DNA of 33,853 nucleotides from an uncultured Pseudomonadota bacterium (GTDB lineage Bacteria; Myxococcota_A; UBA796; SXON01): NCBI GenBank assembly GCA_903844155.1, contig CAIMSU010000355.1, positions 1 to 33,853 on the forward strand, in the 5' to 3' direction. A program made the position numbers and the translations under genes. The notes beneath the pieces are model-generated. The model searched no databases. It worked only from the letters and a program-made list of their open reading frames with translations, and was not told the origin of the DNA. This document shows, piece by piece, positions 20,974 through 30,373 of this stretch (positions within the stretch are counted from its first letter, which is position 1; each line of letters opens with the position of its first letter).

Positions 20974-23162
20974 TCGCGTTCCTGGCCTTGCGGCTGGCCG
21001 AGGCCCACGTGCCGCACGACACGGTCCGCGCGTTGGCTGCGCCCGCCGACCTTGACGAGGGGGTTCCGTGGACGCTCCTGGCTGACCCGCAGGGCATCTA
21101 CCTGCTGTTGGACAGCACGGACGGCGGCGTACGCTGGGCCATGGTTGGCGGCGAGCCCGTGGTGGACGACCTGACCGACGCCACGTATCTCTCAGACGGC
21201 ACCGAGGTGCTGCTCGGCGGCGGGGAGCTCTGGGAACGGCAGGGGGACGAAGCATGGTCGCCCTTCGTCGCGCCGACCGGGACCGCCGCGCTTGAACGGG
21301 ATGGGGACGATCTGCTCCTTGCCGCCGCGGACGGCGTGTACGTCGGCCCACCCGCCGGGCCCTGGACCCTGGAGCTCGCTGGAGCGGTCACTGGATTCGG
21401 CGCCGGCCCTGTGGCGTTTCGCGGGACGTCCGTGTACGCCCGCGAGAACGGCGCGTGGGCCGCGCTCGGTGACCTGCCGGTGGAGGTGACGGCCGCAGCG
21501 AGCGGGGCCGATGGCGCGGCGTTCGCAGGCAGCCAGGACGGTCGGGTCTGGCGCCGGGAGAACGACGCATGGGTCTCGTGCGCTGCGCTCGGCAACGCGG
21601 ACGTCCCGGCGATCGTGGGCATCACCACGGCGGACGCCCTGGTCTACGTCGCGACAGGGTCCCACGCGCCCTGGCGGAGCGATGACGGCTGTGCAACCTG
21701 GCGCGACGTCGGGGTCGGCGAGGACGCCCAGTACGGGAGCGACGGGGACGCGCAGCGCCCCTCCGACGCCTGGCCGGTGCTGTACGCGTCGGGGGATCAC
21801 GTGGTGGTGGGGGGTTGGGCCGGGCTCTACTCGAGCGCGGACGGGGGCACGACCTGGGTCGACTCCCCCGTCATCCCCGCGGACTACACCCGCAGCGTCG
21901 CCTTCGACGCCTCCTTCGCCGAGGACAGCCTCGTGTACCTCGCGGCGTACGGGGCCGGTCCGCTCGCCACGGACGACGGCGGGGCGTCGTTCACCGCCAC
22001 GAACGCGGGCTTGAAGGAGGTCAACGCGCAACGCGTTGCGGTGCCTGAGGCCGGATCCAGGGACCTGCTGGTCGTGGACGGGCACGACGGGTTCCGTTCG
22101 CGGAACGGGGGAGAGTCCTGGGTGAAATTCGGCGGCGAGCAGGTCGGGGATTTCTTCGCGTGGGAGGACGTCGGCGACGTGTGGCGGGTGGACCTTGAGG
22201 GCAACCTCGATGAGACCACGAACGGGGGGCTGACCTGGCAGCGCCTCGACGACGTCACCACGGCGCTCGGCGGGTCGGCGCCCAGGTCCGCGGCCCGGTT
22301 CGGCGCAGGGCGCTGTGTGACGGCAGAGGCGCCGGAACGCGTCGTTTGCGACACAGGCGGTGGCTGGTGCAGCGTCTTCGACGGCGACGTCGGCACACCC
22401 ACCGCGCCAGTGGCGGTCGGGGATCGCCTCGTGTTCGGCGATGAGGACGGCGTGCACCTCAGCGACGACGACGGGGAGACCTGGACGACCGTGGACCCTG
22501 CCCCCGGGGACCCGATCCAGGTGATGACCTCCTCAGACGATGGCACGTTGTTCCTCGCAACCCGCACCGCCCAGGTCATGCGGAGCCAGGATGAGGGGGT
22601 CACCTGGTCTGCCCTCGGCGGGCGACTGCCAGCCCACGTCTACACCCTCGCGCCCCGACCCGGCTACGCCGAGACGCCCGACCTGCTCATCGGCACCCAC
22701 GACGGCACCTTCCTCTGCCAGGGCGCAGCCGGCCCCGTTCGGTGGGCTCAGTACCAGCGCATCGACGCCTCCGGCTACCTGGCCACCTGCACGGATTGCC
22801 CGGACCCTGCGCCCGCGCTGGGCCGTGGGATGGGCGACACCCAGCCGCTCCGGAAGGACAGCGTCCTGACCGCATGGGTGCGCGGCGACCAGGTGGACAC
22901 GCTCGGCGCCGGCGGCTGCACGTCCGGGGACCTCGTCGCTACCATCGATGGCGTGGACGTCGGCGACCCGCGCGAGGGCGTGGATCTCTCGCCGGGGTGG
23001 CATCGCGTGGAGATCCGGGCGCCGAACGGCAGCGCGTCTGTCGACGCGATCGAGGGCCGGACGGCGTCGGCCACCGTGACCGTACCGACGCCGACCCGCG
23101 GCTGCGCCGGCGCCCTGGTCTGGCTGACCCTGCCGTTGCTATGGAGAGGTCGGCGGCGATGA
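20970..23162 (+). CDS. Asp-box (BNR) beta-propeller protein with MYXO-CTERM-like anchor
   Basis: A 730-aa protein with at least six Asp-box motifs: SADGGTTW, TDDGGASF, SRNGGESW, TTNGGLTW, SDDDGETW and SQDEGVTW. These indicate one or two sialidase/Ycf48/sortilin-like beta-propellers (about 30-590). A beta domain with paired Cys (CTDCPDPAP, GGCTSGD) follows. The extreme C-terminus is TRGCAGALVWLTLPLLWRGRRR, that is Cys, a hydrophobic segment and an Arg cluster, as in MYXO-CTERM or GlyGly-CTERM sorting signals. The GTG at 20970 overlaps the upstream TGA by 4 nt. An in-frame TTG at 20931 would add 13 residues. The N-terminal MIAFLALRLAEA may be a short signal peptide. No catalytic residues of a sialidase are evident. 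Confidence 0.75.
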   Translation: MIAFLALRLAEAHVPHDTVRALAAPADLDEGVPWTLLADPQGIYLLLDSTDGGVRWAMVGGEPVVDDLTDATYLSDGTEVLLGGGELWERQGDEAWSPFVAPTGTAALERDGDDLLLAAADGVYVGPPAGPWTLELAGAVTGFGAGPVAFRGTSVYARENGAWAALGDLPVEVTAAASGADGAAFAGSQDGRVWRRENDAWVSCAALGNADVPAIVGITTADALVYVATGSHAPWRSDDGCATWRDVGVGEDAQYGSDGDAQRPSDAWPVLYASGDHVVVGGWAGLYSSADGGTTWVDSPVIPADYTRSVAFDASFAEDSLVYLAAYGAGPLATDDGGASFTATNAGLKEVNAQRVAVPEAGSRDLLVVDGHDGFRSRNGGESWVKFGGEQVGDFFAWEDVGDVWRVDLEGNLDETTNGGLTWQRLDDVTTALGGSAPRSAARFGAGRCVTAEAPERVVCDTGGGWCSVFDGDVGTPTAPVAVGDRLVFGDEDGVHLSDDDGETWTTVDPAPGDPIQVMTSSDDGTLFLATRTAQVMRSQDEGVTWSALGGRLPAHVYTLAPRPGYAETPDLLIGTHDGTFLCQGAAGPVRWAQYQRIDASGYLATCTDCPDPAPALGRGMGDTQPLRKDSVLTAWVRGDQVDTLGAGGCTSGDLVATIDGVDVGDPREGVDLSPGWHRVEIRAPNGSASVDAIEGRTASATVTVPTPTRGCAGALVWLTLPLLWRGRRR

Positions 23163-24587
23163 GCGGACCGGCACGCCGCTGACCCAGACCTGCACGATGT
23201 CCTCGGTGTGCTTGATGTCGGTCGTCGGGTCACCGTTCACGAGGAGCAGATCGGCAACAGCGCCGGGCTTGAGCGTGCCCGAGGCCTGCGCATCGAGGAA
23301 CGTGCCGTTGCCGTAGGTCGCGGCTTTCAGCACGTCGAGGATTGGGACGCCAGCGTCCACGAGCAGGCGCAATTCCTCGTGGATGGACCCCGGGAAGGTG
23401 CCGATGGACCCGTTGGAGTCGCTGCCGACGAGCAGTGGGATGCCGGCCTGGAACATGGCGAGGGTGTTGGCGACGCGGTCGGCGCGATGGGCCTGGAGCG
23501 CGTCCGCCCACCCCTTGAAGCTGGAGCCGGTCAGCGTTCTCTCGTGCTCCAGAAGGACCGCCGGGGCGAGGCTTGCCAACACAGCGGCCGGCTGTGTCGC
23601 GATCTCGGAGGCAGTGGGATGAAATTCGCCTACTGCAAGCTCGTCGAACCGGTGCCAGTTCACGAGCGTCGGTTCAAAGGCGATGCCCGATGCCTTCAGT
23701 GTGGCCACCTGTTCGGGCGTCAGCAACGACGTCTCCACGCCGTGGGCGAGCAGATCGACGCCCACGCGCGCGCAGATCAGCGCGTCCTCAGCGCTGTCGA
23801 TATGCGCGGCGACCTTGAGATGCCGCTCGTGTGCACGCTTGGTGGCCGCCGCCATCAGCTCCTCGGACAGCCTCGGCGCCGGCAGTTGACCGGACGGTCG
23901 CGGTGGGATCGAGGCACCCATCAGCTTGACGAACGTGCCTCCGCCGTCCGCGATCCGGTCCACCTGCGCCACGACGTCCGCAACGTCCTTGACCGCGACG
24001 AAGTCCCGGTTTTTGAGACTTGCATAGGCTATCGAACCATACACCTCCTTCGCCATGTCGAGCGGGTAGCCGCCCTCCACCGTCAAACCGGGGCCCGCGT
24101 AGCGGATGTGCGGGCCGACCCACCCGCCAGCGGCGATCTCACCTTTCAACCGCTGCAATGTCTTCAGGTCCCCGCCGAGGTCGAGCACGGAGGTGACTCC
24201 GCTGTACACCAGCGACTGCGCCGCGTGCTTCGGGTCCGGCAGTGTCAGGAACCAGGGCGGACCGGCGCCCAACGCAAGGTGAACGTGCAGGTCGATCAGG
24301 CCGGGGAGCAGCGTACGTCCATCCCCGGGAATCACGAGATCGGCGGGCAGGTGCGGTGACACGGAGGGACGGATGTCGGCGATGACACCACCGACGATGC
24401 GGACGTCCAGGTGCTCGCGAACCTCCGGCCTGCCGTCGTTCGCGTCGAACACGCGTACATCCTCGATCAACACCGAGCCGCCCTTCGCGGGCGCGGGCGC
24501 GGTGAGCTTCGGCGCCGAGACGAGGTGGATGCAGCCGGTCAGGGCCAGCGCAGGGAGCAGGGCGATCGGCTTCAAACGTACAGACAT
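23139..24587 (-). CDS. Lipoprotein amidohydrolase (imidazolonepropionase/prolidase-like)
   Basis: A 482-aa protein with signal MSVRLKPIALLPALALTGC (lipobox Cys19) and an amidohydrolase-superfamily TIM barrel. Metal ligands visible are LIDLHVHL (His101, His103), a Lys in TFVKLMG that may be carboxylated, AAHIDS, LLAHGVE, and the late Asp in VGSDSNG. The C-terminal beta-sandwich GTLKPGAVADLLLVNGDP closes the fold. Such enzymes hydrolyse amide or imino-peptide bonds; the substrate is unknown. The protein would act outside the cytoplasm. The last 24 nt overlap the 3' end of the convergent beta-propeller gene. The ATG at 24587 has no Shine-Dalgarno; TTAGGT lies 6 nt upstream, a weak match to the leaderless-type element. 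Confidence 0.88.
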   Translation of the reverse strand: MSVRLKPIALLPALALTGCIHLVSAPKLTAPAPAKGGSVLIEDVRVFDANDGRPEVREHLDVRIVGGVIADIRPSVSPHLPADLVIPGDGRTLLPGLIDLHVHLALGAGPPWFLTLPDPKHAAQSLVYSGVTSVLDLGGDLKTLQRLKGEIAAGGWVGPHIRYAGPGLTVEGGYPLDMAKEVYGSIAYASLKNRDFVAVKDVADVVAQVDRIADGGGTFVKLMGASIPPRPSGQLPAPRLSEELMAAATKRAHERHLKVAAHIDSAEDALICARVGVDLLAHGVETSLLTPEQVATLKASGIAFEPTLVNWHRFDELAVGEFHPTASEIATQPAAVLASLAPAVLLEHERTLTGSSFKGWADALQAHRADRVANTLAMFQAGIPLLVGSDSNGSIGTFPGSIHEELRLLVDAGVPILDVLKAATYGNGTFLDAQASGTLKPGAVADLLLVNGDPTTDIKHTEDIVQVWVSGVPVRSSPPTSP

Positions 24588-24811: not shown

Positions 24812-26485
24812 ATGTCCTGGGTCGCGCTCGTCGGTCCTGAAATCGAGGAAAACCTCTCCCTCCGCTACCTCGCGTCGTCGCTGGCACGGGCAGGCTATCG
24901 GAGCGAGATCCTCGGATTCAATGGGGACAATGACTTCGGACGCGTGCTCGCCGCGATCCTGGACGCAGACGAAGCACCGGTCGTGGTCGGCATCTCGCTC
25001 GCGTTCCAGTGGCGCGCGCGGGATTTCCTGGCGTTGGCGATGGCGTTGCGGGAGGGCGGGTACACCGGGCACATCACCACGGGCGGGCACTTTGGTACGT
25101 TTGCGTGCAAGGAGGTGCTGGCCGAGTTCGACGAGGTCGACAGCGTGTGCCGCCAGGAGGCCGAGGAGACGCTCGTCGCGCTCGTGCGGGCGGTCGAGAA
25201 CGGCACGCCCCTGTCCGCCATCGCCGGCCTCGCTTACCGCGAGAAAACGGCCGATGGGCCGGATGAAGTCCGCCTCACCTGCCTGCCGACGATGCCGGAC
25301 CTCGCCTCCCTCCCCCGTCCCGACCGCCGTGGCGCGCCAGCCGCCTGCTTCGACCACGCCATCGCGCCGATCGTGTCCTCGCGCGGCTGCTACGCGAATT
25401 GCACCTTCTGCTGCATCGCCGCGTGGCACGAACAGACCATGCCCGGCAAGCGCTACCGGGTGCGCGACATCGGCGACGTCGCCGACGAGATGGTGGCCAT
25501 GCAACGCGAGCGGAACGTGGAGGTCTTCGTCTTCCACGACGACAATTTCTTCCTGCCCGGGCACTCGAAAAACCTCGTTCGCATCAACGCTCTCGCAGAC
25601 GCCCTGGAAGAGCGCGGCATCGGGCGCTACGCGACCGTTGTCAAGGCGCGGCCGACGGACGCGGACCCCGCCGTGTTCCGCGCGCTCGTTGAGCGGCTGC
25701 ACTGCATCCGGACCTACGTCGGCATCGAGACAGACGCGGATCAAGGCCTGGAAACGCTCAATCGCTGGGCCCAGTCCAGGCACAACCACGCGACCATCGC
25801 GCTTGCCCGCGAGCTTGACCTCTACACCTGCTTCAACCTGCTCTTGTTCGACCCGGACACGACCGTGGAGAGCCTGGAGACGAACATTTCGTTCATCGAG
25901 GCAGCGCCCGAGTTTGCGTTCAATTTTGGGCGCGTGGAGCTGTACGCCGGAACCCCGCTGCTCCAGCGCATGCTCGCGGAGGGCCGGTGTACGGGCGACT
26001 GGATGCAGTGGGACTACAAGCTCCACGATCCCGCTGTGGAGCGTATCTTTGATCTGACGATGAAGCTTTTTCACCCCCGCAACTTTGGGGACGGCGCGCT
26101 CGCCAACCACCTGATGGGCACGCGCTTTGACGCAGAGGTCTGCCGGTACTTTCACCCCGACGTCTGGCGAAAATCCTGGGGCGACGAGGCGAAGGACCTC
26201 TCGCGGGCACTGTCGACGGACACGGCCCAGAGCCTGCGAAAAATCCTCGCCCACGTGACCGCCAACGAGGCACGTACGGACCGCGCGTTCGTCCGCGCCC
26301 TCGCGCCCGAACTGCGTGCCGCCGAGGAGGTCATCGGCGAACGAGCCCGGGACTTCGCGCGCGCAATGCAAGCGGCGATCGGGCGCGGCGCACCCCTGAC
26401 AATCCTGGGCGATCGCGTCGCGACGCCGCTCCAAACCCAACGACGGGCTGAGAGCAGCCTGGTCAGCTCCGGCGAGGTGGTGTGA
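24812..26485 (+). CDS. B12-binding-type radical SAM protein
   Basis: A 557-aa protein. The ATG at 24812 is preferred over one at 24620 because GGAAGG lies 4 nt upstream and the family N-terminus starts there (LVGPEIEENLSLRYLASSL). Residues 1-130 resemble a cobalamin-binding Rossmann domain, including TTGGHFGTF (89-97); the DxHxxG motif for lower-ligand exchange is not seen, as in many of these enzymes. The radical SAM core has RGCYANCTFC with Cys193, Cys197 and Cys200 (C-x3-C-x2-C), followed by VFHDDNFF and YVGIETDADQGLE. The C-terminus (about 430-557) is helical, without a SPASM-type Cys cluster. Its TGA overlaps the start of a small lipoprotein gene, and a paralogue follows. The operon suggests modification of these proteins, which is inference. 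Confidence 0.85.
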   Translation: MSWVALVGPEIEENLSLRYLASSLARAGYRSEILGFNGDNDFGRVLAAILDADEAPVVVGISLAFQWRARDFLALAMALREGGYTGHITTGGHFGTFACKEVLAEFDEVDSVCRQEAEETLVALVRAVENGTPLSAIAGLAYREKTADGPDEVRLTCLPTMPDLASLPRPDRRGAPAACFDHAIAPIVSSRGCYANCTFCCIAAWHEQTMPGKRYRVRDIGDVADEMVAMQRERNVEVFVFHDDNFFLPGHSKNLVRINALADALEERGIGRYATVVKARPTDADPAVFRALVERLHCIRTYVGIETDADQGLETLNRWAQSRHNHATIALARELDLYTCFNLLLFDPDTTVESLETNISFIEAAPEFAFNFGRVELYAGTPLLQRMLAEGRCTGDWMQWDYKLHDPAVERIFDLTMKLFHPRNFGDGALANHLMGTRFDAEVCRYFHPDVWRKSWGDEAKDLSRALSTDTAQSLRKILAHVTANEARTDRAFVRALAPELRAAEEVIGERARDFARAMQAAIGRGAPLTILGDRVATPLQTQRRAESSLVSSGEVV

Positions 26486-27024
26486 TGGCTGGTGACGAGA
26501 ACCCGAGGAAGATCCTGGCGCCCGAGATCCTGCCGCCGCCCAACGAGGACCGTACCGGGAGCGTGCGCGATCGCACGCGTCGACGCCTCTCAGCGCTGCT
26601 GTCGGTGTCGTCCGTCGGCGGCGTTGCGCTGGCGACGAGCTGCATCTACGGCACGGTCGACATGATGCCCGAGCCTGTGCAATGCACGGACCAGGACCCA
26701 AGCCAGTGGGGAGCGGACCTGTTCGTGAGCGCCAACTGGTCGGGCGACACGATCCGGCTGCGCGTGCGACCCACCGGTGCCAAATCGCTGAGCGTGGACA
26801 GCGCAGTGACGGTCACCGGCGGCACCCTCGTGACCGTCGACGGCTCCGATGCCGCCGACGTGATCTTCACGCTGAACCCGGTCCCGGCGGGCATGACCGT
26901 GGTGGTGGATGGAACGCTGCTGTGTGGGACGCAAGCCGGGAATTGGGAGGCGACGCTCGATTTGTCCGGCGGTAGCGACTCAGGCGCCGATACCGCGGGC
27001 GGGATTCCGGTGACGGTCCGTTGA
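26485..27024 (+). CDS. Small lipoprotein A of the radical SAM operon
   Basis: A 179-aa protein started at the ATG at 26485, which shares its A with the upstream TGA; the GTG at 26482 is an alternative. A hydrophilic leader (1-27, with ILAPEILPPPN) is followed by R28-D29-x2-R32-x2-L35-x2-L38-L39, a hydrophobic stretch and lipobox ALATSC (Cys53), then IYGTVDMMPEP. The core (about 67-160) contains VTVTGG (108-113) and VVVDGTLLC (139-147). A Gly/Ser/Asp tail ends in IPVTVR. Lipoprotein B is a paralogue with the same motif and core. No known family is recognised. The long leader before the membrane segment is unusual for a plain lipoprotein and could be a recognition leader. Confidence 0.7.
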   Translation: MAGDENPRKILAPEILPPPNEDRTGSVRDRTRRRLSALLSVSSVGGVALATSCIYGTVDMMPEPVQCTDQDPSQWGADLFVSANWSGDTIRLRVRPTGAKSLSVDSAVTVTGGTLVTVDGSDAADVIFTLNPVPAGMTVVVDGTLLCGTQAGNWEATLDLSGGSDSGADTAGGIPVTVR

Positions 27025-27518
27025 GCCGCGCGCGCGACCACGTTCGCGGGACCCTGGAGCGCATGCTCCGGGCGTCCAAGCTGCCGATCATCGTGGCCGC
27101 TGCGCCGGGGTTGTATGGGTGCGACCACGCGCCGGCACCGCATCGGGAGACCGGCACGCACGACACCGGCCCGACCTGCACCACCGAGCACAGCCGAGAG
27201 TGGGTCGCCAGCCTCTCCGGGACTGGAGAGCTGCGCAACGACGAGCTGGTGCTTCTTCTTGGCTCGTCACTCCCGGACCTGAGCTACGACCAGACCGTCA
27301 CGGTCACCGGTGGCGCCGCCACCTACGTCATCGCGGGCAACCCGCTACGACTGGACATCAAGGTCGACGACGGCGTCACCACGGTCACCGTCGACGGCAC
27401 CGTCCTCTGCAGCGGCAGCCATTCCGGCGCCTTCCACCTTACCGTCACGACCGGCGCGCCGGGCGACCCCGGCGCGCCGGGCGACCCCGTCACGCCCGTC
27501 ACCCTCGGCTTTTCCTGA
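27021..27518 (+). CDS. Small lipoprotein B of the radical SAM operon
   Basis: A 165-aa protein started at the TTG at 27021, which overlaps the stop of gene A (TTGA). An ATG at 27063 with GGAG close upstream would give a 151-aa product. The TTG is preferred because it includes R5-D6-x2-R9-x2-L12-x2-M15-L16, the same spacing as the motif in protein A. A hydrophobic segment and lipobox GLYGC (Cys34) follow. The core shares VTVTGG (93-98) and VTVDGTVLC (122-130) with A, and both have a Cys pair (Cys53 and Cys130 here). The tail has GAPGDP twice, from an exact 18-bp duplication. The function is unknown. It converges on the next gene with 4 nt between the stops. Confidence 0.7.
   Translation: MSRARDHVRGTLERMLRASKLPIIVAAAPGLYGCDHAPAPHRETGTHDTGPTCTTEHSREWVASLSGTGELRNDELVLLLGSSLPDLSYDQTVTVTGGAATYVIAGNPLRLDIKVDDGVTTVTVDGTVLCSGSHSGAFHLTVTTGAPGDPGAPGDPVTPVTLGFS
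27453..27488 (+). repeat. Perfect 18-bp tandem duplication
   Basis: Two identical 18-bp units, GGCGCGCCGGGCGACCCC, lie at 27453-27470 and 27471-27488 and encode GAPGDP twice in lipoprotein B. Perfect identity suggests recent slippage or duplication. Confidence 0.85.
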
Positions 27519-27522
27519 CCCA

Positions 27523-28965
27523 TCACTCCGTCGACCCGCCCGCCCCCCCATAGCGTCCCATGTCCGTCGCGGTGCCGTCATCATCGTTGCCAGCCGTTGG
27601 ATTTCCAGCGTTGGAGCACGGGCTTGACGATTTCAGGTGGTAATCGGAGGTGCCCGTGAACTTGGGGTCCTTGGAGATGTCTGTGATGTCCGTGACCGGT
27701 GAAATCCCAAGGTAGGGAACCGCCGCCGTTACGTCCGAATACGTCAATCGCGCGGTGCTGACCGCGATCGCGTCCCCGACGACGGCATAGTCGGTCGCTG
27801 TGATGATCGAGCTGTCGATGGTGAGGGTGCTCGGCGGGTTCGTGCCTTCCTCCAACGTGATCGCCTGATCGAGGTTCGCCAGCGTGCTGCTGGCGAAGGT
27901 TGCGGCCACCCCCCGCATGTAGAAGCCGTCGGTGGTGCTGCCGACCTCGTCCGCGATGAGCGAATGGGTGATTGAGACGGTGCCACCCACAAAAACCCCG
28001 GCTACGCCATACCCGCCCGTGTCCCCCGACGCGTGAACGTGGTCGAACCGGATTATCCCGCCGCCCGCGTCGATGACGCTGCCCTCATAGGCGTTGTTCC
28101 CCGAGAACGTCACGTCGTCGAGCGTCAGGCTGGTTCCGGCAAAGCTGATGCCACCGCCGTAGCTGATGGTTCCATGAATGTCTGTGGTCGCAGCCTTTTC
28201 GTCCGGGAGCTTGTTGCCTGAGATCACCGTCGCGGTCAACGTGAGATTGCCGCCGGTCTGACGGACCCCGCCACCGACGTACTGATCGACGGTCGCGGCG
28301 CCGACGGTGTAGGCGGTCGCGTAGCCACCGCCGTCCGACAGGGTCAGCCCGGTGATTGCCATCGTTCCACCTGCCATGGTCAGCACCGAGCCGCTGCCAG
28401 CCGCGTCGACGATCGTCGCGCCAGCGCCGTCCACGCCGACAATTTCCATGTCCACGGACGGCGCGACGAGGTTCTCGGTGTACGTCCCGCCAACAACGCG
28501 AACGCAACGCGTCGTCGTCTCAACGGCGGCAGCGGCGGCGAGCGCGGCCTTGATGGTGAGGTACGGGTCGGTCTTCCGGCCTGAGGCACGACTACTACCG
28601 GCGTTTGACGCCCACATGGGGATGCTGGCCGTCCCGTCGTTGCAATCGTAGTCGTTGTCGACCCAGCCAGGCGGCGCGAACGCGGCGTACCTGAAGGAGT
28701 TGGGGTCACCACAACCGTCGCTGTCCGTGTCGGCGTAGAATTTCAGCAACCCGGCCGTGTCACTGCCGCTGTCCCCGTCCGTGTCGGTATCGGATTCGGT
28801 GTCCGTATCTGAATCGGTATCGGAGTCTGTGTCCGTATCGGTCGCCGTGTCGGCGGTTGTGGCGCTGTCGCCGGACCCAACCCGTCCGGTGACCGTGGAC
28901 TCGGGAATGTAGAAGCACGCGGGCAAGCACGCCGTTCCGGCAAGAACAAGGATGCTCCGTGTCAT
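27523..28965 (-). CDS. Beta-helix lipoprotein with TDSD linker and MopE-like motif
   Basis: A 480-aa predicted surface lipoprotein with signal MTRSILVLAGTACLPA and lipobox Cys17, then FYIPESTVTGRV. A Thr/Asp/Ser linker (about 37-66) is followed by a MopE-type metal-binding motif (about 76-115: DTDSDGCGDP ... NDYDCNDG). The rest (about 130-460) is a right-handed parallel beta-helix: TYTENLVAP, repeated LTL/TIDS/ITG turns, and short stacked Gly-Gly-Gly-(I/V) strands. The C-terminus DPKFTGTSDYHLKSSSPCSNAGNP is typical of such proteins. The ATG at 28965 overlaps the stop of its upstream paralogue (ATGA). Binding or adhesion is inferred. Confidence 0.8.
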   Translation of the reverse strand: MTRSILVLAGTACLPACFYIPESTVTGRVGSGDSATTADTATDTDTDSDTDSDTDTESDTDTDGDSGSDTAGLLKFYADTDSDGCGDPNSFRYAAFAPPGWVDNDYDCNDGTASIPMWASNAGSSRASGRKTDPYLTIKAALAAAAAVETTTRCVRVVGGTYTENLVAPSVDMEIVGVDGAGATIVDAAGSGSVLTMAGGTMAITGLTLSDGGGYATAYTVGAATVDQYVGGGVRQTGGNLTLTATVISGNKLPDEKAATTDIHGTISYGGGISFAGTSLTLDDVTFSGNNAYEGSVIDAGGGIIRFDHVHASGDTGGYGVAGVFVGGTVSITHSLIADEVGSTTDGFYMRGVAATFASSTLANLDQAITLEEGTNPPSTLTIDSSIITATDYAVVGDAIAVSTARLTYSDVTAAVPYLGISPVTDITDISKDPKFTGTSDYHLKSSSPCSNAGNPTAGNDDDGTATDMGRYGGAGGSTE

Positions 28966-30373
28966 TCTTCCGTCCCGGTGGGCCCGCCGTAACGGCCCAT
29001 GTCACTGCGGCGTCCATCGTCGTTGTACACGTTTGGGTCTCCTGTGTGCGCGCAAGGGCTCGTGGGCTGGAGGTGATAGTCTCCCGCACCGACGAACTGG
29101 GGATCGCCTGAGATGTCGGTGCCGTCGGCCGGGGACGCGATGCCGCTGAACGGAACACCACCGACGTACACATCCGAATACTTCAGGACCACGCTGCTGC
29201 CAGTCCCAAGTTGGAGGACCGCCCCGCCACCCGCGCTGATGATCGAGTTTTCAATGCTGAGCGCGCTCAACTGCCCGCTCGACCCGTCGAGGGTGAAGGC
29301 CGTAGGCAGGTTGTAGAGGGTGTCGTTGACGAGGTCGACCTCGGCGCCCTGCAGGGTGAACCCGTCCGTTCCCTCGTTCGCGATGATCGAGTTGGACAGG
29401 GAGAGTGACCCCAACTGAAACTCGCCCGCGCCTCCAATCGATGCGGAGTCCCCCGTTTGGGTGACATGCGTGCCGCTCATCCGGGTGCCGGACTCACCGA
29501 ACCCACCGCCGAAGTAGGCATAATTGCCGCTGATGAGGACATGGTCCAACACGAGGGTGCCGCCGCTGGCGTAAAATCCTCCGCCGACGCTGGAGATCCC
29601 GGTGACCGTGGACGACGCGGCCACGAAGGTCGGGAGCGAATTGTTCGTCAGCGCGACGTCCGTGAGCGTGACCGAGCCACCAAGCTGGTAGAGGCCGCCG
29701 CCCGAGTACGTCACGTAGTTGTAGGTGCCATCCGTGTAGTTGACTTTGGTCCCAGCGCCATGCGATAGCGTCAGCCCGCTGACCGCGACCGTTGCATTCT
29801 CCACGCTGAGCGCGGAGCCAAGGTTTCCGCCGATGATGACGTTGTCTCGCCCGTCCACCCCTGCCATGTCGAGGGTGCCGTACGCGACCAGCAGCGCCTC
29901 GGGGTACGTGCCGGCGAAGATGCGGACGCACTTCTTCGGCGCGGTGAGGACCTGCGCAGCGGCGATGGCCTGGGTGATCGTCGGAAATGGCCCGGCCCTC
30001 GTGCCGTCCGAGGTCGCGTTCGGGGTGCTGGACGCCCACACCGGGACCCTTGGCTCCCCATCGTCGCAATCGTGGCGTTCTCGACCCGTCCGCCCGGGTT
30101 GGACGCAGCCTGCACGCCAGTAGCCAGCTCACCCGAGCCATCGCCGTCGGCGTCGACATACCACCAGTGGAGGGCGCCCGTGTCATCCGGCGCGGAGTCG
30201 GGGTCGGTGTCTGAATCCGTATCGGTATCGGTATCGGTATCGGTATCGGTGTCCGAATCCGTATCGGTGTCCGCATCGCCGGTCGGGACCCGTCCTGTCA
30301 CGTCCGACTCGGGGATGTAGAAGCATCCCGCGAGGAGTCCGACGGGCACGAGCACGAGCAAGGAATGGGTCAC
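28962..30373 (-). pseudogene. Frameshifted paralogous beta-helix lipoprotein
   Basis: This gene has the same plan as its downstream neighbour. It has lipobox Cys17, then FYIPESDVTGRV, a TDTD linker, a MopE-like motif, a beta-helix and the ending DPQFVGAGDYHLQPTSPC. It is broken by a -1 frameshift near 30072. Frame one runs from the GTG at 30373 to PGGRVENA. The homologous continuation DCDDGEPRVPVWASS is in another frame and runs to the stop at 28962. Adding one base restores GRVENANDCDDG, aligning residue for residue with GWVDNDYDCNDG of the paralogue. Everything else is intact, so a very recent mutation or a sequencing/assembly error is likely. The GTG start has TACCCT exactly 6 nt upstream. 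About 470 aa are expected if repaired. Confidence 0.85.
30219..30248. repeat. Hexanucleotide microsatellite (GTATCG)5
   Basis: Five perfect tandem GTATCG units (plus strand) lie within the Thr-Asp linker of the frameshifted lipoprotein, flanked by degenerate units. Changes in copy number would alter linker length in frame. Confidence 0.85.

Follow-up and report, generated by a model that had tools for sequence, protein, structure and literature searches.

The window analysed here, a 33,853-nt stretch of DNA, contains three overlapping genes on its plus strand. The first (24812..26485; 557 aa) encodes a putative cobalamin-binding radical SAM enzyme, the second (26485..27024; 179 aa) a small lipoprotein, termed lipoprotein 1, and the third (27021..27518; 165 aa, TTG start) its paralogue, lipoprotein 2. 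The stop codon of the enzyme gene (TGA, 26483-26485) shares one nucleotide with the ATG of lipoprotein 1 at 26485, while the stop codon of lipoprotein 1 (27022-27024) lies in a 4-nt overlap with the TTG of lipoprotein 2 at 27021. The coordinates, frames and overlaps of 1-4 nt given in the first-pass annotation were all correct. It had also described an intact C-x3-C-x2-C motif and a cobalamin-type N-terminus in the enzyme, and both were recovered: the motif is C193-x3-C197-x2-C200, and the N-terminus matches the B12-binding Pfam domain PF02310 (E=2e-13; 50.6 bits vs a gathering score of 32.1). A match to Radical_SAM PF04055 was found as well (E=2e-8). The B12-binding domain covers residues 11-125 and the radical SAM core residues 187-355, followed by a C-terminal region with GDRVATPLQTQR. 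Judged by these domains and the CxxxCxxC motif, the enzyme is a cobalamin-type radical SAM protein, for which cobalamin binding and SAM cleavage are predicted. It falls far below every NCBIfam equivalog cut-off, the best being that of HpnR (74.8 vs 650 bits). HpnR, BchE and HpnJ are among its best sequence matches, together with ApyD, a RiPP enzyme.

The trio is flanked by genes for an amidohydrolase and for beta-helix proteins. The amidohydrolase gene (23139-24587, minus strand) is divergent from the radical SAM gene and encodes a lipoprotein-like signal; its best NCBIfam match is an Xaa-Pro dipeptidase model, below the cut-off. On the other side, the minus strand at 27523-30373 encodes a tandem pair of paralogous beta-helix lipoproteins (CFYIPES...VTGRV, DTDSDT repeats). 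The gene of the second one looks frameshift-split between frames 29771-30373 and 28962-30041.

The two small proteins are paralogous, as had been proposed (BLASTP E=1e-6, 29% over 101 aa). They had also been assigned to no known family, and neither has a meaningful match in Pfam or NCBIfam: in NCBIfam, lipoprotein 1 had no match and lipoprotein 2 only an irrelevant urease match (E=0.16). The N-terminus of lipoprotein 1 comprises the leader KILAPEILPPP, RDRTRRRLSALL and a hydrophobic segment ending in LATSC. Directly behind it lies the candidate modification motif YGTVDMMPEP (26647..26676, plus strand), an instance of the family motif (Y-x-V/C)-D-P-[ML]-P-x-P, which follows the signal peptide. 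Past the motif come Cys67 and a seven-strand beta sandwich with Cys147. In the structure model of lipoprotein 1, a helix spans residues 27-50 and a confident beta sandwich residues ~79-159. A fold search with the beta domain returned no PDB match at E<=0.001. The best match at a second look was the N-terminal domain of DsbD (Z 7.7, rmsd 3.0, 98 aligned), a resemblance of the model that may reflect just the common Ig-like arrangement, and no function was assigned from the fold. In lipoprotein 2 the lipoprotein signal is weaker (TTG start, LYGC), and the motif is degenerate (YGCDHAPAP, at a lipobox-like Cys; 27114..27140, plus strand). The sequences VTVTGG and VDGTxLC, put forward in the first-pass annotation as shared features, are present in the window pair but are local to it; since neither recurs as such beyond the pair, they were dropped as a family signature in favour of the family constant, D-x-x-P, to which that annotation had given no name.

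Another locus of this kind lies on contig C308 of the host genome, and its enzyme is 65% identical to that of the window. There, two small exported proteins are encoded upstream of the enzyme gene, whereas those of the window lie downstream. Their motifs read YGVVDPMPTP, YGVVDPMPPP and YCVVDMMPEP. The feature common to the small proteins of the two loci is this short stretch right behind the signal peptide.

Next, we sampled relatives of the enzyme by scanning one genome per species, which yielded 80 enzyme loci. Automatic labels (groups A, B and C) misplaced L018, L019, L022, L053 and L097 through a threshold effect, and L069 and L084 on account of cut contigs; these groups were corrected by eye. 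The close relatives (~50-70% identical; Myxococcota, Acidobacteriota and Planctomycetota) are stand-alone enzymes and form one fully supported clade in a quick tree. Linkage of the motif to this clade is nearly constant: D[PM][MLI]P is encoded on the strand of the enzyme within 1.3 kb in 26 of the 28 testable loci, L023 having been left out as its contig stops 181 bp after the enzyme. The two exceptions are L031, which has VVDPPPPP in place of the usual motif, and L041, where no recognisable partner was found near the enzyme. The motif is 17.6-fold enriched near the enzyme, with 36 matches in 71.5 kb vs 13 in the remaining 454 kb of flanks (p=3e-21, uncorrected for common descent). The partner gene usually begins inside or at the stop codon of the enzyme, and the genes overlap or abut in most loci (4-nt overlaps occur e.g. 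in L020, L021, L022, L025-L028, L030, L033 and L038). Lipoprotein genes are downstream in most loci and upstream in L012 and L019. Enzymes of the second stand-alone subclade (L029-L041) often end in a VGxxCxHxRP-like sequence, where the first subclade has GDRVATPLQ.

The partners share one architecture. RxRxxxHLxxLL is followed by a hydrophobic segment, often ending in Cys, and then by (Y-x-V/C)-D-P-[ML]-P-x-P, of which VVDPMPPP is the commonest form in the close relatives; behind the motif come a Cys and a beta domain holding a second Cys. The segment directly preceding the motif is signal-peptide-like, and lipobox assignments throughout were judged by eye. One Myxococcota subset has a leader like KLMPEILPKP, and the L031 and L040 partners, in which the Cys is absent, resemble plain secreted proteins. 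Across 27 aligned partners, in which mean column identity is 21%, the Asp of the motif and the Pro three residues after it are invariant, and the beta domain is much less conserved than the motif. The partners at L035 (113 aa) and L036 (96 aa) contain little besides a signal peptide and the motif in duplicate. Outside the close clade, L046 (Gemmatimonadota) has a like arrangement, with VDPPPPPLQC.

In 35 more distant enzymes (~35-45% identical), a hydrophobic segment follows after ~520 residues, mostly preceded by net positive charge, and 24 of the 35 have a lipobox-like Cys. Most of these fused tails contain one to seven acidic-proline motifs, in forms such as DPLPPP, HMCEMAPPP, HPTEMAPEP, EAAPPPY and EAPPPP; a few showed no motif by the pattern used. 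A search of the phylum added 20 loci, about four of which were judged to be copies of known loci; the tails of this set were scored by eye. All readable new members of this set have a Cys behind the membrane segment, and motifs are present in all but two of the set (partial in L124, none in L129). Tandem MVVDPLPxD-like units occur in L128 and L130, and one five-contig genome (G128) holds four enzymes, L129 among them. A third enzyme clade, from Geobacter relatives, Brocadia, Nitrospinae and ANME archaea (L064, L066, L067, L072-L074, L078, L082, L083, L087, L088, L093, L094 and L097), has neither a motif tail nor a motif partner that we could find; most of its members end in PIPYxxFKxR.

The fused relative at L051 was modelled with AF2. 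The model is confident at residues 1-520, and its fold is nearest to OxsB (Z 25.9), followed by MgmA (24.3), AprD4 (24.2), CysS and TsrM. In this model the tail is disordered and the motif is not positioned at the active site; docking of the tail was given up on account of the disorder.

We then asked whether the lipoproteins occur apart from the enzyme, a question raised by the first-pass annotation. The enzyme family is present in 35 of 379 genomes of the phylum. A profile of the signal-plus-motif segment of the partners gave 12 matches at E<=2.5e-4 in six genomes, all of them enzyme-bearing and every match within ~2.5 kb of the enzyme; in the 379 genomes, no confident lipoprotein match lay away from the enzyme. 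The test is partly circular: the profile was built from enzyme-adjacent genes, and therefore the lack of orphans is better shown than the linkage. One genome that had no part in building the profile (G348) has two partners, one on either side of the enzyme. Weaker matches in genomes without the enzyme were near noise, and some off-enzyme matches that we read (E 3e-4 to 0.01) were not motif lipoproteins, bar one in G279. That one, YGVVDPLPPPYLC, lies at the end of contig C88 (L099, minus strand) in a genome where the enzyme was not detected; given its position at the contig end, the assembly may simply lack its enzyme gene. Viral contigs gave one weak match. The DNA pattern VVDP[ML]PxP alone matches many genomes without the enzyme and was therefore unusable as a test.

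The two gene orders, the fusions and the conservation of the motif over the domain together make the motif the likely target of the enzyme. We consider it reasonably probable that the trio represents a two-component RiPP-like system: the adjacent prolipoprotein would carry the motif, and the B12 radical SAM enzyme would modify it there. Under this model, the cytosolic, B12-dependent enzyme would recognise the prolipoprotein encoded beside it and modify the (Y-x-V/C)-[D/E]-P-[M/L]-P-x-P motif that follows closely on the signal peptide. We place this step before export because radical SAM enzymes are cytosolic. The modified protein would then be exported, lipid-anchored where a lipobox Cys is present, and would display in the envelope a modified proline-rich stalk and a beta sandwich, probably disulfide-bonded. 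C-methylation is the commonest chemistry of the B12 radical SAM class, and our tentative choice among the possible reactions is C-methylation of the invariant acidic or Pro residue or of a neighbour; other chemistries may apply instead. An enzyme-substrate pairing had been suggested in the first-pass annotation. Adjacency, both gene orders and the fusions support it, and the outcome named there as refuting it, small-protein homologues widespread without the radical SAM gene, did not appear among the confident matches. From the pairing we infer the modification itself. The fold comparison, with the protein-methylating MgmA close behind OxsB, also favours the model. Against it stand the degenerate motif in lipoprotein 2, L041 with no recognisable partner, the variant at L031 and the L051 model with its disordered tail.

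A further point against a protein substrate is that the named families closest in sequence, HpnR, BchE and HpnJ, have lipids or small molecules as substrates. By the same token the window enzyme could act on a small molecule or lipid, with the lipoproteins and tails serving as membrane partners, carriers or anchors, and the fusions would indeed tether the enzyme to the membrane. Anchoring leaves unexplained the invariant D-x-x-P, the up to seven tandem repeats and the partners that are barely more than a signal peptide and motifs, and in the loci that we read, without counting, no other biosynthetic gene was seen recurring beside the pair. We regard this explanation as unlikely. The conserved motif could alternatively serve in the envelope as a proline-rich signal for binding or sorting, with the enzyme modifying the lipoprotein elsewhere or not at all. 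It is rich in Pro and adjoins the lipid anchor, and some variants (DPPPPP) resemble plain proline-rich ligands. A general signal would nevertheless be expected on many lipoproteins, yet the 379 genomes gave no confident match off the enzyme, and conservation is much lower in the beta domain than in the motif. A binding or sorting role seems improbable to us.

Several fused variants group H, M, C and E (HMCEMAPPP, MCEMMMEP), which raises the idea that the motif, once modified, binds metal as do the bufferins, signal-peptide RiPPs that chelate copper and set a precedent for modified, exported chelating peptides (PMC12452194). The commonest form in the close relatives, VVDPMPPP, offers neither Cys nor His as a ligand within the motif, however, and no metal genes were noticed beside the pair in a non-systematic reading of the loci. 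Metal binding appears very improbable.

Returning to modification of the motif by the enzyme, the enzymes of the distant relatives carry motif repeats of their own, placed after an internal membrane segment that usually has a lipobox-like Cys. These proteins might be self-processing: the enzyme, as the entire cytoplasmic front part of a lipoprotein precursor, would modify the motifs of its own tail, the tail would be exported and cut at the internal lipobox, and the window pair would perform the same chemistry in trans. This extension, which we advance as a speculation and think rather doubtful, would define a new class of modified envelope lipoproteins spanning at least Myxococcota, Acidobacteriota, Planctomycetota, Verrucomicrobiota, Gemmatimonadota, Bdellovibrionota and Spirochaetota. 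If the two-component model is true, B12 radical SAM enzymes make an unnamed family of modified bacterial envelope lipoproteins. The analysis provides a searchable motif and natural fusions of the enzyme with its candidate substrate, which reinforce the pairing. With natural candidate substrates as small as 96-113 aa, mass spectrometry could test the chemistry directly.

As in RiPP systems in general, a ribosomal precursor gene with a conserved motif adjoins a putative modifying enzyme. An open-access literature search found no description of a B12-radical-SAM/lipoprotein system or of an enzyme fused to its candidate substrate. The B12 radical SAM RiPP C-methyltransferases of TIGR03975 (rSAM_ocin_1) and ApyD likewise combine B12-binding and radical SAM domains and share a presumed ribosomal-peptide substrate; unlike them, the window enzyme reaches only 42.8 of 281.85 and 61.5 of 750 bits, respectively, and a classical RiPP precursor is absent here. 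MgmA (9ccb), the methyl-coenzyme M reductase glutamine methylase, modifies a whole protein and is a radical SAM enzyme of similar fold (Z 24.3, 364 aligned, rmsd 3.2, against the L051 model), but identity is ~20%, its substrate is another one and it has no lipoprotein partner. The NCBIfam families TIGR04133 (rSAM_w_lipo) and TIGR04134 (lipo_with_rSAM) also pair a radical SAM gene with a small lipoprotein gene; that pair is not known to be of the B12 class. When TIGR04133 was searched against the host genome, the matches with E<=0.001 did not include the window enzyme, and none of them exceeded the 425-bit cut-off. TIGR04134 gave no matches, although its control matched nowhere either. Judged by the enzyme, the TIGR04133/TIGR04134 pair appears to be a different family from that of the window.

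The earlier remark that it would be unusual for a radical SAM enzyme to modify a lipoprotein needs a qualifier: the TIGR04133/TIGR04134 pair is already named, and MNIO enzymes make RiPP-lipoproteins (PMC12636315). In the bufferins, ~16% of Buf2 carry lipoprotein signals (PMC12452194); those are MNIO-modified Cys peptides, whereas the enzyme here is a radical SAM protein. The closest precedent is the MNIO-made RiPP-lipoprotein DybA, from the DybA/DybH system of a 2025 preprint (PMC12636315). There, a cytosolic metalloenzyme recognises a conserved motif and modifies a precursor whose signal peptide is of the lipoprotein type, the product being lipidated afterwards; the same course is proposed here. 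The two systems differ in that the enzyme adjoining the lipoproteins is a B12 radical SAM protein and not an MNIO, in that the motif is (V/C)DP[ML]PxP near the N-terminus and not a C-terminal CPACGMG, and in the enzyme-substrate fusions found here. If the proposal is true, the very recent idea of RiPP-lipoproteins extends from MNIO to a second enzyme class.
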